Of a stretch of DNA of 62,748 bases, positions 20,804 to 44,145 are shown piece after piece; within the stretch, counting starts at the first letter, position 1, and each line of letters opens with the position of its first letter. The DNA comes from Sphingobacteriia bacterium (GTDB lineage: Bacteria; Bacteroidota; Bacteroidia; B-17B0; Aurantibacillaceae). Position numbers and translations under genes: made by a program. Location: the NCBI GenBank assembly GCA_009927275.1, contig RFNG01000077.1:1-62748 (forward strand), given 5' to 3'. The notes beneath the pieces were generated by a model. It had not been told where the DNA came from and did no database searches. It saw only the letters and a program-made list of their open reading frames with translations.

Positions 20804-20811
20804 TATATTTG
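20804..20811 (+). promoter_or_regulatory. Promoter -7 box TATATTTG, near-leaderless
   Basis: Exact TAnnTTTG consensus only three bases before the ATG at 20815, so transcription should start within or at the start codon. Confidence 0.6.
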
Positions 20812-20814
20812 AAT

Positions 20815-22460
20815 ATGAAAAGCGTTTTGCGAAAAAAACCATTTCATGCCTTAAGCCGGTCCGAACACCTGTCAAGACATTTAGGGGTTAGGGATTTAAC
20901 CGCATTGGGCATAGCTGCCATTATTGGGGCTGGGATATTTTCAACAATAGGTAAAGCCAGTGCCTCCGGTGGTCCCGGGTTGTACTGTTGTTTATTTTTG
21001 TTGCCGTTGCCTGTAGCTTTACCGCATTTGCCTATGCCGAATTTGCATCCATGATTCCGGTTAGTGGTAGTGCCTACACCTACAGCTATATGGTATTTGG
21101 CGAACTCTTTGCATGGCTCATTGGCTGGTCCTTAATTATGGAATATGCAATTGGTAATGTTACAGTAGCATTATCATGGAGTGAATATTTTTGTCATTTA
21201 ATAAATCATCAAACACCATTTCATATTCCAGAATGGCTTTGCATAGATTTTTTTTCGGCAAAACATCAATATGCCAATCCACTGAGCTCACATCAATCTG
21301 AGGGATGGCTTGCATATGCACATGCGCCAGAAATTGCTGGGATAAAAATTATATTTGATGCGCCGGCAGTTTTAATAAATGTTTTAATTACAGCCCTGGT
21401 ATACCGTGGTATTCGCGAAAGCCGCAATGTAAGTAATATTATGGTAGTGATTAAAATCATCGTGGTGCTTTTGGTAATTGCCGTAGGTATTGGCTATATC
21501 CAGCAGGATAACTGGAGTCCCTTTTTACCTAATGGTTTTTCTGGACTCACTGGTAGTATCAGTGCTGTTTTTTTTGCGTATATCGGATTTGATGCAATAA
21601 GTACAACTGCAGAAGAATGTCATAATCCACAAAAAGATTTACCGCGTGGAATTTTTTTTGCACTCATGATTTGTACCGTATTATACGTTTTAGTGGCTTT
21701 GGTTTTAACAGGAATGGTTTCGTATACTAAACTAAACGTAGGCGATCCCCTTGCTTATGTGTTTGATACATATCCTGCTTTACAATGGATGGGTGGCATT
21801 ATAGCGGTTAGTGCCGTAGTGGCCATGGCCAGTGTAATGCTGGTGTTTCAAATTGGACAACCCCGTATTTGGTATAGCATGAGCCGTGACGGTTTGTTGC
21901 CAAAAGCTTTTCAGCGTATTCATCCAAAATATAAAACACCATCATTTGCCACATTAATTACAGGTGTATTAGTGGGTTTACCCATTTTTTTTATAGACAT
22001 TACGATGGTAACCGATATTTGTTCAGCCGGTACGTTATTTGCATTTTGTTTGGTTTGTGCGGGAGTTTTAAAATTACAGCACGACCCGCATCGGCCAGAA
22101 GCCAAATTTAAAACACCTTATTTTAATAGCCGCTACGGACTACCTGTACTTTGCATATTAATATTATGCATTACGTACATGATTTCACCTCAACTGTATT
22201 CTAAAATTAATATATGGCCATTACACTGGACTTATATTCCCTCGTATGTGTTTATTTTGGTTACAATTATAATCTTTTATCAAGCCATGCGCTATAGATA
22301 TTCATTAATACCAACGCTTGGATTATTACTTTGTTTTTATATGCTATCTGAATTAGGTTTAAAAAACTGGATGTATTTTACCGCCTGGTTAATTTTAGGA
22401 TTACTTATTTATTTGATTTACGGGTACCATAACAGTCATTTAAAATCTAAAACACTATAA
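20815..22460 (+). CDS. APC-superfamily amino-acid permease, one frame break
   Basis: A 12-helix or longer amino-acid permease of 548 residues after repair, of the cationic amino-acid transporter type. It begins SEHLSRHLGVRDLTALGIAAIIGAGIFSTIG, the substrate-site GAGIF loop. The first frame ends wrongly after GGPG at 20977-20979: adding one G to the GGG run gives GGPGVVLLFIFVAVACSFTAFAYAEFASMIPVSGSAYTYS, exactly the family sequence. Later signatures are FFAYIGFDAISTTAEE and the SRDGLLPK loop. It starts a run with SDR, aminotransferase and RidA genes, suggesting uptake and processing of an amino acid or derivative. Confidence 0.88.
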
Positions 22461-22462
22461 AA

Positions 22463-23224
22463 ATGAAAACCATTTGTATAACCGGAGCCAGTTCTGGCAT
22501 AGGAGAAGCTTGCGCGCATGAATTAGCTGCCCAAGGTCATGCATTAATATTATGCGGACGACGTGCCGATCGGCTTAAAATTTTACGCCAACATTTAGAA
22601 ACAACGTATAACACAAGTGTTTTGGATTTAGAATTAGATGTTAGGTATTATAAATCTTGTCAAGAGGTTGTAAACCGACACGAAGCGCTGTTTTCTAAAA
22701 CTGATATTTTAATAAATAATGCCGGTTTAGCAGCAGGCTTGGCGCCTATACATGAGGGGCAAATTAATCATTGGGATCAAATGATAGATACCAATTTAAA
22801 AGGACTGCTTTACATGAGCCGTTTAATTAGTCCCTACATGGTAAAACGCAAACAGGGTAAAATTATTTTAATTGGATCTGTTGCTGGTAAAGAAACTTAC
22901 CCAAATGGAAATGTGTATTGCGCTACAAAACATGCCGTAGATGCCTTAGCCCGGGGTATGCGCATGGATTTAATTTCGCACGGTGTACAGGTTAGTGCAA
23001 TTCATCCTGGAATGGTAGAAACTGAATTTAGTATGGTACGTTTTGATGGCGACCGTGAGCGGGCAAATGCCGTATATAACAACATGACACCTCTAAAAGG
23101 AATAGATGTGGCTAAAGCTGTAACATGGATGATACACAGTCCAGAACATGTACATATTGCTGATGTGGTAATTTACCCTGCTGTGCAAGCTAGTGCAACA
23201 ATAGTAAATCGGAGCAATAGCTGA
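22463..23224 (+). CDS. Short-chain dehydrogenase/reductase, YdfG-like
   Basis: A 253-residue classical SDR. The cofactor loop TGASSGIG is at 7-14, NNAG at 85-88, and the catalytic set is S139, Y152 and K156 (YCATK). The N-terminal GRRADRL and the PGMVETEF motif place it near YdfG, which oxidises 3-hydroxy acids such as L-allo-threonine and serine with NADP. That would fit the amino-acid genes around it, but SDR substrates are hard to predict. The ATG is two bases after the permease stop. Confidence 0.88.
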   Translation: MKTICITGASSGIGEACAHELAAQGHALILCGRRADRLKILRQHLETTYNTSVLDLELDVRYYKSCQEVVNRHEALFSKTDILINNAGLAAGLAPIHEGQINHWDQMIDTNLKGLLYMSRLISPYMVKRKQGKIILIGSVAGKETYPNGNVYCATKHAVDALARGMRMDLISHGVQVSAIHPGMVETEFSMVRFDGDRERANAVYNNMTPLKGIDVAKAVTWMIHSPEHVHIADVVIYPAVQASATIVNRSNS

Positions 23225-23252: not shown

Positions 23253-24566
23253 ATGAAATTTAACCGCAGACATTTTTTATGGACTGGCATTAGTGGAATA
23301 TCTGCTTTAGAGGCCCTTAGTGCTATAAATCCCCATTGGACAAAATCGCTTCAAGGGTATATGAATCGTATAGAATCTGTTCCGCCAGAAGCCTCTGCCA
23401 GCGATGAGGATTTTTGGGCTTGGGTAAAAGCATCTTATACCGTTAGTCCCAATGTGATAAATCTTAATAATGGTGGTGTATCGCCGCAACCTAAAATAGT
23501 ACAAGATGCACAGCAACGGTTTAGCGCATATGCCAATGAGGCTCCATCGTATTATATGTGGCGTATTTTAGATCAAGGGCGCGAGGCCTTAAGACTAAAG
23601 CTTGCAGAATTAGCCGGATGCAGTGCTGATGAAATTGCCATAAATCGAAATGCCACAGAAGGACTTAACAGTATTATTTTTGGATTGCGTTTAAATGCCG
23701 GAGATGAAATTGTTTTAAGTACATACGATTATCCCAACATGATGAATGCTTGGAAGCAACGCGAAAAACGGGATGGTATTGTACTAAAATGGATTCAATT
23801 ACCACAGCCGTTAGCATCAGATTCGCAAGTGGTAGACGCATATATTAATGCCATTACACCAAAAACTAAAATTGTTTATATAACGCATATGATTAACTGG
23901 ACAGGAAATATAGTTCCGGTTAGAAAAATTGCAGATGCCGCGCATCAAAAAGGGTGCGAAGTTATAGTAGATGGGGCTCATTCCTTTGCGCATATACAAT
24001 ATAATATTCCCGATACGGGCGCCGATTATTTTGCAACGTCATTACACAAATGGCTTTCGGCCCCCTTTGGCACGGGATTGATGTACATCCGAAAATCTCA
24101 TGTTAAAAACATATGGGCCTTACTTTCGGCGCCTGAACCGGATGGCAATGATATTCGAAAATTTGAGAATTTAGGAACGCGCTCATTTCCAGCCGAAATG
24201 GCTATTGGCACTGCTGTAGATTTTCATATTGCTATTGGAAGTAAACGTAAAGAAGAACGGTTGCGGTATTTAAAAAATTACTGGATACAACAAATATCTA
24301 AACTTGAACGCATACGATTAAGCACAAATACAGATGCAGAACACTCCTGTGCTATTGCACATATTGGAATTGATGGATGGACCGGCGTTCAAATTGAACA
24401 GTCACTCTTTGAAACCTATAAACTGCATACGGTTGCTATTCAGGTTGAGAAATTAAATGGCATTCGGGTTACACCGCATGTATATACATCAACTCGTGAA
24501 CTAGATCTTTTGATTAAAGGTATTACGGCTTTAAGCGAAAAACATGCTCCCACAGAAAAAAAATAA
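23253..24566 (+). CDS. Class V aminotransferase-fold PLP enzyme with a probable Tat signal
   Basis: The 437-residue protein resembles the isopenicillin-N epimerase/cysteine desulfurase-like group. The PLP Lys is K266 (SLHKWLSAPFGTG), with D240 in VDGAHSF binding the ring nitrogen and RNATEGLN (132-139) in the phosphate-binding area. The N-terminus NRRHFLW followed by a weakly hydrophobic stretch looks like a twin-arginine signal, so the enzyme may be exported folded with PLP bound. Activity could be epimerase, lyase or desulfurase. Its 3' end overlaps the next gene, a RidA with a Sec signal, by 23 bases, which suggests a joint role outside the cytoplasm. Confidence 0.82.
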   Translation: MKFNRRHFLWTGISGISALEALSAINPHWTKSLQGYMNRIESVPPEASASDEDFWAWVKASYTVSPNVINLNNGGVSPQPKIVQDAQQRFSAYANEAPSYYMWRILDQGREALRLKLAELAGCSADEIAINRNATEGLNSIIFGLRLNAGDEIVLSTYDYPNMMNAWKQREKRDGIVLKWIQLPQPLASDSQVVDAYINAITPKTKIVYITHMINWTGNIVPVRKIADAAHQKGCEVIVDGAHSFAHIQYNIPDTGADYFATSLHKWLSAPFGTGLMYIRKSHVKNIWALLSAPEPDGNDIRKFENLGTRSFPAEMAIGTAVDFHIAIGSKRKEERLRYLKNYWIQQISKLERIRLSTNTDAEHSCAIAHIGIDGWTGVQIEQSLFETYKLHTVAIQVEKLNGIRVTPHVYTSTRELDLLIKGITALSEKHAPTEKK

Positions 24567-24981
24567 AATATCCATTTATATACTTGTACTGCATTTAAGT
24601 TGTACGTTTTGTTTTGCGCAGCATGATGTAGTGCAACCCATTGGCCCCTACGCGGGATATACATGTGATGATAATTATATTTTTATTTCGGGACAAATCG
24701 CTTTAAATGCCGAACAAAAAGTAGATACTACATCATTTGAAACAGAATGTAGAATGGTTTTAAATCAAATTAAACGCATTTTACACGACGCCGGCTCAGA
24801 CTGGAATCAAGTTATGAAAACAACTATATATACAACCCGTATGGAATGGTTTAGTCAGATTAACGCCGTATATGAAAGCTATGTAAGCAAACCCTATCCT
24901 GCGCGCGAAACGGTTGGTGTATGCCGGTTGCCAAAACAGGCCCGAATAGAAATTTCGGTTATTGCCAAAAAGCGGCATTAA
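24544..24981 (+). CDS. Exported RidA-family enamine/imine deaminase
   Basis: The 145-residue protein is a complete RidA domain (QPIGPYAGY at 31-39, ISGQIAL at 48-54, RLPKQARIEISVIA at the end) behind a Sec signal peptide (MLPQKKNKISIYILVLHLSCTFCFAQ). The catalytic Arg of the family aligns with R121 (YPARETVGV). RidA proteins hydrolyse reactive enamines and imines released by PLP enzymes. Here it starts inside the end of a gene for an apparently exported PLP enzyme, so the likely partner is next door. The 3' end overlaps the converging murF-alr stop by four bases. A second, cytosolic RidA is at 43765. Confidence 0.85.
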   Translation: MLPQKKNKISIYILVLHLSCTFCFAQHDVVQPIGPYAGYTCDDNYIFISGQIALNAEQKVDTTSFETECRMVLNQIKRILHDAGSDWNQVMKTTIYTTRMEWFSQINAVYESYVSKPYPARETVGVCRLPKQARIEISVIAKKRH

Positions 24982-27386
24982 TCCATAGTATAAACCCGTT
25001 TAACGCGTGATGATACAGATGTTAAAACTTCGTATGGTATGGTATTCATGGCTTTGGAAAGAGCTAATAGTTGAGATGCGTTTTCAAATATTACTACCTG
25101 ATCGCCTTCCTCGCATTGGACTTGTGTAACATCAACCATTATCATATCCATACATACCGAACCTAATATGTTACAAAAAGTATTATGAATAAACACACCG
25201 TGTTTTCCATGTCCTAATAATCTGGACAAACCATCTGCGTATCCTACAGGTAAAGTAGCTACACGTTTAGCAGATGCAAGCGCTTCGGATTTGCCGTAAC
25301 CAATGGTTTCACCCGCCTCAACAATTCGAATTTGAGAAATTTGAGTATACCATTTACAAACCGACTCAAGTGCGCCTTGCTGTGCGATTCCGTATAATCC
25401 TATTCCCAAACGCACCATATCCATATGACTTTGAGGTAAACGTAGTACGGCATTGGTATTAGCCATATGTCGTAGTATAGGATAATTTAATTTATTTTGT
25501 ATAACATTGTACATGTTGGTAAAACGATTTAACTGAACGGTACTCCATCCATCAGCGTGAGGATCGTCTGATGCTGTAAAATGTGAAAATACCGAACCTA
25601 CATGCAATCGCGGATGCCGCATTAACATTTCAAGTAATGGTGGTATATCAGCATCCGTAAAGCCCAGACGATGCATGCCGGTATCGAGTTTGATATGTAT
25701 ATGAATTGAATGTAATGCGCTGTATTCAGCAACTTCAATTAATTTATTTAAAATTTTAAAATTGTAAATTTCAGGTTCTAAATTATTTTTTATTAATTCC
25801 TCAAGGCTGTCCTCTTCAGGATTCATGACCATTATAGGTACAGTTACCTGGGCATTACGCAAAGCAATTCCTTCATCTGTATACGCTACAGCTAAATAGG
25901 CTATGCCGCATTGCTGTAAAAAACGTGCTATTTCAATACCGCCACTACCATAAGCCATGGCCTTTACCATGCCCATTATTTTTACCTGGGGATTTAAATG
26001 CGATTTAAAATAATTTAAATTATCCCGTAAACGGCTTAAATTAACTTCAAAAACAGTAGCATGCGATTGTAGCTGCAATCGACTTGCAAGCCTTTCAAAA
26101 TGATACGAACGGGCCCCCTTAATTAAAATGCGGGCTTCAGACAAATATGGACTAATTTCGTTTAAACTGGAAATCAAGGCATTGGTATCTTTAAATACAC
26201 GATATAAACAATGTAATTGAATTTCTGTGTTTAAAAATAATTCACCAACTAAAAAACAATAATCTAAAGGAAAACGTGCGCAACAACGAGATAATGCACT
26301 CATACGCTGCTGTGCTGTAAGCCCACTCTGCTCTAAATCAGATACAATTAAAATAGAACGTTTACGTGGCGATTGCTGATACATAAATTGCAAGGCAATT
26401 TCTAGTGATTCTATATCGGCATTATAGTAATCATTAATTAAAATACTGTTTGCCCAGGCTTTTTTAACATCAAGTCGTAAGGATATACTTTTTAAATTTA
26501 AAATACGATTTTGAATCTGTTCGGGTGTATAGTGCAAGTGGAATAATACGCCAATACAGGTTACCGCATTACGCACTGAACTTTCATCGTTAAACGGCAT
26601 TTTAAAAAAATGAGTGCGGTTTTCATATGTTATATGAATTCCATCACTTAGTGCACTGTAAGATAGGGATCCGTTTGGACCAATTTCAATCCAGGTTCCT
26701 TGAAATAAATTTGGTTTGGCTACCTGCTGCGCAATCACAACTGAAGCCTGAGATGTTAATTTTAATTTTTCTTGTAATTTTTCAGAGCGGTTGGCAAATG
26801 CTTCATCATGCGGACTGCCCAATGAAGTAAAGACAACCATAGCGGGCTTTATCATCGCTTGTAATGTTTGCATTTCACCGGGCATTGAAATACCCGCTTC
26901 AATTAATGCAAGATTATGATGCGATTCCATGCGCAAAATACTTAACGCAACTCCTAACTGCGAATTAAAACTCCGCGGGCTCCGAAGTATTTGAAAGTCT
27001 GTTTTTAATAGCTGATAAAGCCATTCTTTAACTATGGTTTTTCCCTGACTACCTGTTATGGCAATGGTTAAACCTTTAAACTGGCTGCGTTTCCATGCTG
27101 CCCAAATTTGTAAATGTTGCAGCACTCCCTTTACGCGAATCCACGTGATTGGTTGCGTATTTAATGCATCCAGCACGTAATCGTGTTCAACCATAAAACA
27201 TGTTATTCCATGCGCAATCAGTTGTGGTATATACATGTGACCATCACGGTGTACTGTTTTTAGTGCTAAAAACAGTACCCCTGTTGTACCTGCTATTTGA
27301 CGGCTATCATATGCAATATTTGAAATTTCGGCATCCGGTCCCTCATGGATAGCATTTAAAATATGTATAAGATCTTTACTGCGCAT
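24978..27386 (-). CDS. Bifunctional MurF (UDP-MurNAc-tripeptide:D-Ala-D-Ala ligase)/alanine racemase
   Basis: An 802-residue fusion common in Bacteroidota. Residues 1 to about 440 are MurF, with the ATP loop ITGSQGKT (110-117) and the INDYYNADIESLE segment near 317-329. Residues 445-802 are alanine racemase, with the PLP Lys at K475 in MVKAMAYGSGG, the HIKLDTGMHRLGF strand and CMDMIMVDVT, followed by SSRVKRVY at the end. Together the two domains supply D-Ala and add D-Ala-D-Ala to the peptidoglycan stem. The start overlaps the thymidine kinase stop by 11 bases. In many Mur ligases the ATP loop has GKTT/S; here it is GKTI. Confidence 0.95.
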   Translation of the reverse strand: MRSKDLIHILNAIHEGPDAEISNIAYDSRQIAGTTGVLFLALKTVHRDGHMYIPQLIAHGITCFMVEHDYVLDALNTQPITWIRVKGVLQHLQIWAAWKRSQFKGLTIAITGSQGKTIVKEWLYQLLKTDFQILRSPRSFNSQLGVALSILRMESHHNLALIEAGISMPGEMQTLQAMIKPAMVVFTSLGSPHDEAFANRSEKLQEKLKLTSQASVVIAQQVAKPNLFQGTWIEIGPNGSLSYSALSDGIHITYENRTHFFKMPFNDESSVRNAVTCIGVLFHLHYTPEQIQNRILNLKSISLRLDVKKAWANSILINDYYNADIESLEIALQFMYQQSPRKRSILIVSDLEQSGLTAQQRMSALSRCCARFPLDYCFLVGELFLNTEIQLHCLYRVFKDTNALISSLNEISPYLSEARILIKGARSYHFERLASRLQLQSHATVFEVNLSRLRDNLNYFKSHLNPQVKIMGMVKAMAYGSGGIEIARFLQQCGIAYLAVAYTDEGIALRNAQVTVPIMVMNPEEDSLEELIKNNLEPEIYNFKILNKLIEVAEYSALHSIHIHIKLDTGMHRLGFTDADIPPLLEMLMRHPRLHVGSVFSHFTASDDPHADGWSTVQLNRFTNMYNVIQNKLNYPILRHMANTNAVLRLPQSHMDMVRLGIGLYGIAQQGALESVCKWYTQISQIRIVEAGETIGYGKSEALASAKRVATLPVGYADGLSRLLGHGKHGVFIHNTFCNILGSVCMDMIMVDVTQVQCEEGDQVVIFENASQLLALSKAMNTIPYEVLTSVSSRVKRVYTMD

Positions 27387-43764: not shown

Positions 43765-44145
43765 TTACGGCAACACGGCTTCTACACTGATTTCAACATG
43801 GGCGTCTTTGGGGAGCTTTGCCGCCTGTATTGTAGCTCGGGCTGGATAATGCGATTTAAAATACCCAGCATAAACCTCATTTACCTGAATAAAATGATTC
43901 ATATCGTTTAAAAATATGGTGGCTTTAACCACATTGTCAAACGAACAACCGGCCGCTTTTAATATTTCACCAATGTACTCCATTACGATTCGGGTTTCTT
44001 CTTTAATACTGGTTTGTATAAGCTGCTTGCTTTGTAAATCCATGGCTATAGTTCCACTAACAAACACTAATTGTCCTGCAATTACAGCTTGGTTATAGGG
44101 ACCAATAGGTGCCGGAGCCAAATCTGTTTGAATGATACGTTTCAT
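43765..44145 (-). CDS. Cytosolic RidA-family enamine/imine deaminase
   Basis: A 126-residue canonical RidA: PAPIGPYNQAV (11-21), FVSGTIAMD (28-36) and PARATIQAAKLPKDAHVEISVEAV, with catalytic R103. It has no signal peptide and should act in the cytoplasm on 2-aminoacrylate and similar imines from PLP enzymes. Its start is two bases from the paaZ stop, so the two are almost certainly co-transcribed; whether it handles a PaaZ-related metabolite is not evident. Confidence 0.92.
   Translation of the reverse strand: MKRIIQTDLAPAPIGPYNQAVIAGQLVFVSGTIAMDLQSKQLIQTSIKEETRIVMEYIGEILKAAGCSFDNVVKATIFLNDMNHFIQVNEVYAGYFKSHYPARATIQAAKLPKDAHVEISVEAVLP

Follow-up and report, generated by a model that had tools for sequence, protein, structure and literature searches.

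A predicted Tat-exported class-V PLP enzyme and a predicted exported RidA encoded by overlapping genes in Bacteroidota

Within the window, a 62,748-nucleotide stretch of Bacteroidota DNA analysed here, we found two overlapping genes encoding a class-V PLP enzyme and a RidA-family protein, both of which are almost certainly exported to judge from their N-termini, and which probably act together in view of their conserved association. It is reasonably likely that PLP chemistry in the cell envelope releases an enamine or imine that is hydrolysed by the exported RidA, the reaction and the substrate being those that we infer below. The first-pass annotation of this DNA had proposed that an exported pair implies enamine or imine chemistry in the periplasm; conserved export signals, pairing beyond the genus and co-occurrence even of unlinked genes have strengthened that proposal, whereas the chemistry itself is still deduced. 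Whether the two proteins form a dedicated extracytoplasmic system in Bacteroidota and their relatives, in which a PLP lyase or oxidase exported by Tat forms a reactive product and an exported RidA removes it, we regard as evenly balanced. The features concerned are as follows.

23253..24566, plus strand: Tat-type exported class-V (fold type I) PLP enzyme, PvdN/C-DES-like, 437 aa (open reading frame, PF00266, structural model, orthologues).
23253..23342, plus strand: twin-arginine signal region MKFNRRHFLWTGISGISALEALSAINPHWT (RRxF kept amid variable flanks; low model confidence for residues 1-25).
24048..24050, plus strand: codon of Lys266, the PLP Schiff-base lysine, in SLHKW (invariant in 21 orthologues; aligned with the lysine of PvdN and SufS).
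24544..24981, plus strand: exported RidA-family protein, 145 aa (open reading frame; PF01042 and TIGR00004 above cut-off).
24544..24618, plus strand: Sec/SPase I signal peptide of 25 aa, MLPQKKNKISIYILVLHLSCTFCFA, with predicted cleavage between CFA and QHD (sequence; extension before IGPY; single start).
24904..24906, plus strand: codon of Arg121, counterpart of the imine-hydrolysing Arg of RidA (invariant in the RidA alignment).

The PLP enzyme matched the Pfam family Aminotran_5 (PF00266) with 142 bits (cut-off 21.5). Its best curated relatives were SufS and PvdN, and it remained far below the cut-offs of both families (129.9 versus 475.1 bits for SufS; 128.8 versus 650 bits for the PvdN family NF051467). 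The AlphaFold model of the enzyme (pLDDT 85, with residues 1-25 disordered) was closest in fold to PvdN (Z 46.0, rmsd 1.9 Å, 20% identity), followed by C-DES (1elq and 1n2t; Z 43.6, 2.0 Å, 21% identity), and the SufS-type desulfurases ranked third (Z 41-43). Comparison of 21 orthologues revealed that Lys266, Asp240 and Arg405 are invariant, the last of these occupying the alpha-carboxylate-binding position of relatives. Thr393 aligns with the catalytic Cys of desulfurases, and the orthologues carry T, V or S at this position (one C in 21), indicating that the enzyme is not a standard persulfide-forming desulfurase; the missing Cys together with the low family scores rules out a cysteine desulfurase. 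Identity with the C-S lyase EgtE was likewise ruled out (TIGR04343, 59.1 bits versus a cut-off of 400). The same genome encodes a second exported-type paralogue (G000:C104:4222-5391, L079; 41% identity), which has no neighbouring RidA gene.

Export signals were judged by hydrophobicity, motifs and conservation. In the N-terminus of the PLP enzyme, MKFNRRHFLWTGIS, R5 and F8 do not vary among the 21 orthologues and R6 shows 95% conservation, while residues 9-45 have a mean conservation of 43% with no position reaching 85%, against a mean of 73% for the mature part. Nearly constant RRxF residues ahead of a variable stretch (residues 9-45) point to a Tat signal and not to a conserved domain. Among orthologues and close paralogues, 120 distinct sequences in all, 107 carried the RRxF motif and most of the remainder had KRxF or RKxF. 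The source genome encodes TatC and two TatA-like genes, so that the N-terminal twin-arginine motif and the Tat translocase genes characteristic of a Tat substrate are found together; the presence of TatC is in itself weak evidence of export, since 113 of the 120 relatives have TatC anyway. In the clade of the window enzyme the h-region of the signal is weak and mildly hydrophobic, contains one Glu and is followed by no clear cleavage site. The mild hydrophobicity and the acidic residue make cleavage uncertain, and the enzyme of this clade might remain tethered to the membrane. With RRxF conserved and K266 invariant, the initial description of an exported PLP enzyme with a twin-arginine-like N-terminus and an intact PLP lysine was upheld.

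The RidA gene overlaps the end of the PLP enzyme gene by 23 nt on the same strand, and its product scored 100.2 bits against PF01042 (cut-off 27.3) and 108.4 against TIGR00004 (cut-off 106.25). It begins 32 aa before the IGPY motif, compared with about 13 aa in canonical RidAs. Gln at +1 is usual for substrates of Bacteroidetes signal peptidase I, the Q-rule (PMC5837995), and the +1 residue of the window RidA is consistent with it. We ruled out a cytosolic RidA with a mis-called start, because only a single start is possible and the N-terminal extension recurs in all linked homologues. Residues Y36, G50, N107, R121 and E136 are all present, with R121, Y36, G50 and E136 invariant in the RidA alignment and the catalytic Arg, Tyr and Glu invariant across the exported RidA set. 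The window protein is divergent in that about six residues directly before IGPY, present in relatives, are missing. The overlap, the cleavage site after CFA and R121 confirmed what had been read from this gene, namely a RidA overlapping the enzyme gene and bearing a Sec signal and the catalytic Arg. The window also encodes a canonical cytosolic RidA at 43765-44145, and the genome has a third RidA-like gene on another contig.

The lack of a conserved neighbourhood in related genomes had been named as grounds for abandoning the pair; the pairing was instead found to be kept beyond the genus, and 33 of 119 distinct PLP-enzyme orthologues are followed immediately by a RidA gene in the same orientation. 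The intergenic gaps of these 33 pairs range from -35 to +37 nt; several families of Bacteroidota have such a pair, as do Ignavibacteriota. Mapping the linkage state on the orthologue tree required 11 changes, at least 7 of which are forced by well supported branches. RidA was the gene most often tightly linked to the enzyme (41 loci, duplicates included), the runner-up being found at 8 loci of a single clade, and the flanks of the pair are otherwise unrelated, comprising permease/SDR, aroA/aroB, peptidases, a sigma factor and others.

All 33 linked RidAs possess a hydrophobic N-terminal export segment, while the other RidAs of the same relatives mostly have about 13 residues before IGPY and no hydrophobic segment. 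Three types of export signal were recognized on RidA: an SPase I signal with Gln at +1, an N-terminal anchor and a lipobox. At L261, L262 and L264, from members of the phylum that are further removed, the linked RidA carries the last type (LSAC) and is, to judge from its sequence, a lipoprotein; a lipobox is also present on the RidAs of L259 and L265. Variation of the signal type among linked RidAs indicates that the predicted extracytoplasmic location is kept while the signal changes. At L080 (4418-7245) and L081, a relative of the PLP enzyme and the RidA encoded after it both lack a signal, suggesting that enzyme and RidA match in compartment. At both loci an exported paralogue of the PLP enzyme adjoins the signal-less relative, which represents a cytosolic version of the pairing.

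The other 86 of the 119 orthologues have no adjacent RidA gene, and several of the unlinked genomes showed cytosolic RidAs only, which indicates that the PLP enzyme works without an exported RidA; so RidA appears to be a frequent helper of the enzyme, not an obligate partner. Its frequent absence fits a product that would also hydrolyse by itself, RidA being helpful but dispensable.

Genome-wide co-occurrence was evaluated in a phylum sample of 395 genomes, 105 of which contain the PLP enzyme or a close paralogue at E <= 1e-80. Exported RidAs were recognized from the N-termini of the best matches to a search profile built from linked RidAs. At least 13 genomes of the sample have an exported RidA, and the PLP enzyme was present in all 13 of those found (hypergeometric 2e-8 against the baseline of 105/395, a value ignoring shared ancestry). 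The RidA and enzyme genes lie apart in 8 of the 13, and the enzyme is present in 8/8 of these (hypergeometric 1.5e-5, again ignoring shared ancestry). Outside the sample, an exported RidA occurs in genome G085, which lacks an orthologue of the PLP enzyme, and most genomes with the PLP enzyme had no exported RidA among the matches listed. Exported RidAs situated away from the PLP enzyme, beside unrelated genes, were observed at L208/L272 (G085), L222 (G074), L265, L266 and L267.

Upstream of the pair, two further genes were delimited.

22463..23224, plus strand: YdfG-like SDR, a neighbour in the clade of the window only (profile matches; neighbourhoods of relatives).
20809..22460, plus strand: amino-acid permease with the frame broken near 20980-20990, a neighbour in the same clade only (two tblastn pieces in different frames).

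The earlier statement that a permease and a YdfG-like SDR precede the pair therefore holds within this clade and fails in the wider family. Since the two genes are linked in that clade only, a single functional unit of permease, SDR, enzyme and RidA was ruled out. The two permease pieces match one permease of 574-580 aa in relatives, and the split frame is either an assembly error or a broken gene. Neighbours such as aroA/aroB, peptidases, an FAD enzyme and a sulfatase, among others, are clade-specific and were ruled out as clues to the substrate. On the opposite strand, an 802-aa gene (24978-27386, minus) converges on the RidA gene with a 4-nt overlap; by eye its product has a MurF-like N-terminal part and an alanine racemase C-terminal part, and it clusters with similar genes close to the pair in several relatives. 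Alanine racemase is a target of 2-aminoacrylate. In most members of the clade an exported protein of 244-246 aa without a Pfam match (cluster c3; L039:7355-8086, L044 and L048) is encoded between the SDR and the PLP enzyme; it is absent from the window and looks like an outer-membrane beta-barrel.

In the mechanism that we propose, the PLP enzyme would fold with its cofactor in the cytoplasm, be exported by Tat and have as its periplasmic substrate a compound carrying an alpha-carboxylate, which Arg405 would bind. An enamine or imine would be its product or leaving intermediate, and we lean slightly towards such a release. The first candidate for the reaction is a beta-elimination of the C-S lyase type giving 2-aminoacrylate, although this specific assignment, made by analogy with C-DES, is tentative. 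RidA would reach the envelope independently of the enzyme, through Sec, as a lipoprotein or with a membrane anchor, depending on the lineage; there it would hydrolyse the enamine or imine to a 2-oxoacid and ammonia, which would remove the product and shield the PLP of the partner enzyme.

By analogy, the main rival to beta-elimination is O2-dependent chemistry: like PvdN or CcbF, the PLP enzyme might serve as an oxidase or a tailoring enzyme whose target, an exported peptide or a product resembling a siderophore, is either decarboxylated or oxidized to an imine; RidA would then either hydrolyse that imine or do no more than protect the cofactor. Such an activity would suit the position of PvdN, which is the closest solved structure by both Z and rmsd and, of the curated-family relatives with a role in the periplasm, the best; PvdN and CcbF are among the fold-type-I PLP enzymes that use O2 (PMC7497351). 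We nevertheless consider it unlikely, given a score (128.8 bits) far under the PvdN family cut-off of 650 and otherwise unrelated flanks with no common biosynthetic neighbours.

The remaining alternatives concern RidA and the linkage. An exported RidA could destroy enamines and imines whatever their origin, in the envelope or the environment, and its linkage would then reflect protection of the enzyme's PLP from outside damage; some exported RidAs are indeed distant from the enzyme and beside unrelated genes, and 2-aminoacrylate attacks the PLP of many enzymes (PMC4433059). However, exported RidA is nearly confined to enzyme-bearing genomes among the matches listed, which is unexpected for a general role and renders this explanation rather improbable. 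Roles other than deamination are also known for RidA-fold proteins, and the exported RidA is perhaps a chaperone or binding protein whose gene hitch-hikes by inheritance with an unrelated one. This would agree with the partly vertical inheritance of the pairs and with the 86/119 unlinked orthologues, yet we hold it to be very improbable in the face of the changes of linkage state forced by well supported branches (at least 7), the unrelated flanks, the repeated re-creation of export signals, the co-occurrence even of unlinked genes and the invariance of the catalytic Arg, Tyr and Glu in the exported RidA set.

RidA is understood to guard cytosolic PLP enzymes against 2-aminoacrylate, and PLP enzymes are few in the cell envelope. 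The preferred reading, a joint action of PLP enzyme and RidA in the envelope, suggests that the enamine and imine chemistry policed by RidA inside cells also runs outside the inner membrane. If this is true, a RidA would for the first time be known to act beyond the cytoplasm, its export having been invented anew in secreted, lipoprotein and anchored forms. The pair offers a direct route to the substrate, since the product of the enzyme should be a RidA substrate, and a large orthologue group known only as 'class V aminotransferase-fold' proteins gains a probable partner and location.

Among known systems, C-DES is a cytosolic, beta-eliminating class-V PLP enzyme, an L-cysteine/cystine C-S lyase; the window enzyme shares its fold but carries an export signal. 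SufS and CsdA have the fold and the PLP residues in common with the window enzyme, but not the catalytic Cys (T393). PvdN and PtaA of Pseudomonas are Tat-exported periplasmic PLP enzymes (PMC6206403, PMC6085387); PvdN travels through Tat with PLP bound (PMC6206403), and its experimentally validated signal is MNDRRTFLKQ (PMC6085387). The window enzyme resembles PvdN in being a fold type I class-V PLP enzyme with an RRxFL twin-arginine signal and differs in its pairing with an exported RidA, none being reported for PvdN in these two papers; no pyoverdine-type genes were found among the PLP-enzyme neighbours examined. RidA genes are known to cluster with PLP enzymes releasing 2-aminoacrylate (PMC4433059). 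The window RidA is like those in its catalytic residues and its gene position beside a PLP enzyme and unlike them in its export signal, neither 'signal peptide' nor 'periplasm' occurring in the text of PMC4433059. In OngC/OngD of a chitin oxidation operon, genes of a PLP-type deaminase and a RidA protein also stand together, but the PLP enzyme is a different one, the pathway is intracytoplasmic and the role of RidA was left open there (PMC9537276). Open-access titles and abstracts yielded neither an exported RidA nor the periplasm as a site of RidA or 2-aminoacrylate, and the first-pass view that an exported PLP enzyme with an exported RidA had not been described accords with the open-access literature, in which we found no such system. 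Both halves, Tat-exported PLP enzymes and RidA-PLP gene clusters, are thus already known, and going by the descriptions found, it is their exported combination that appears to be new.
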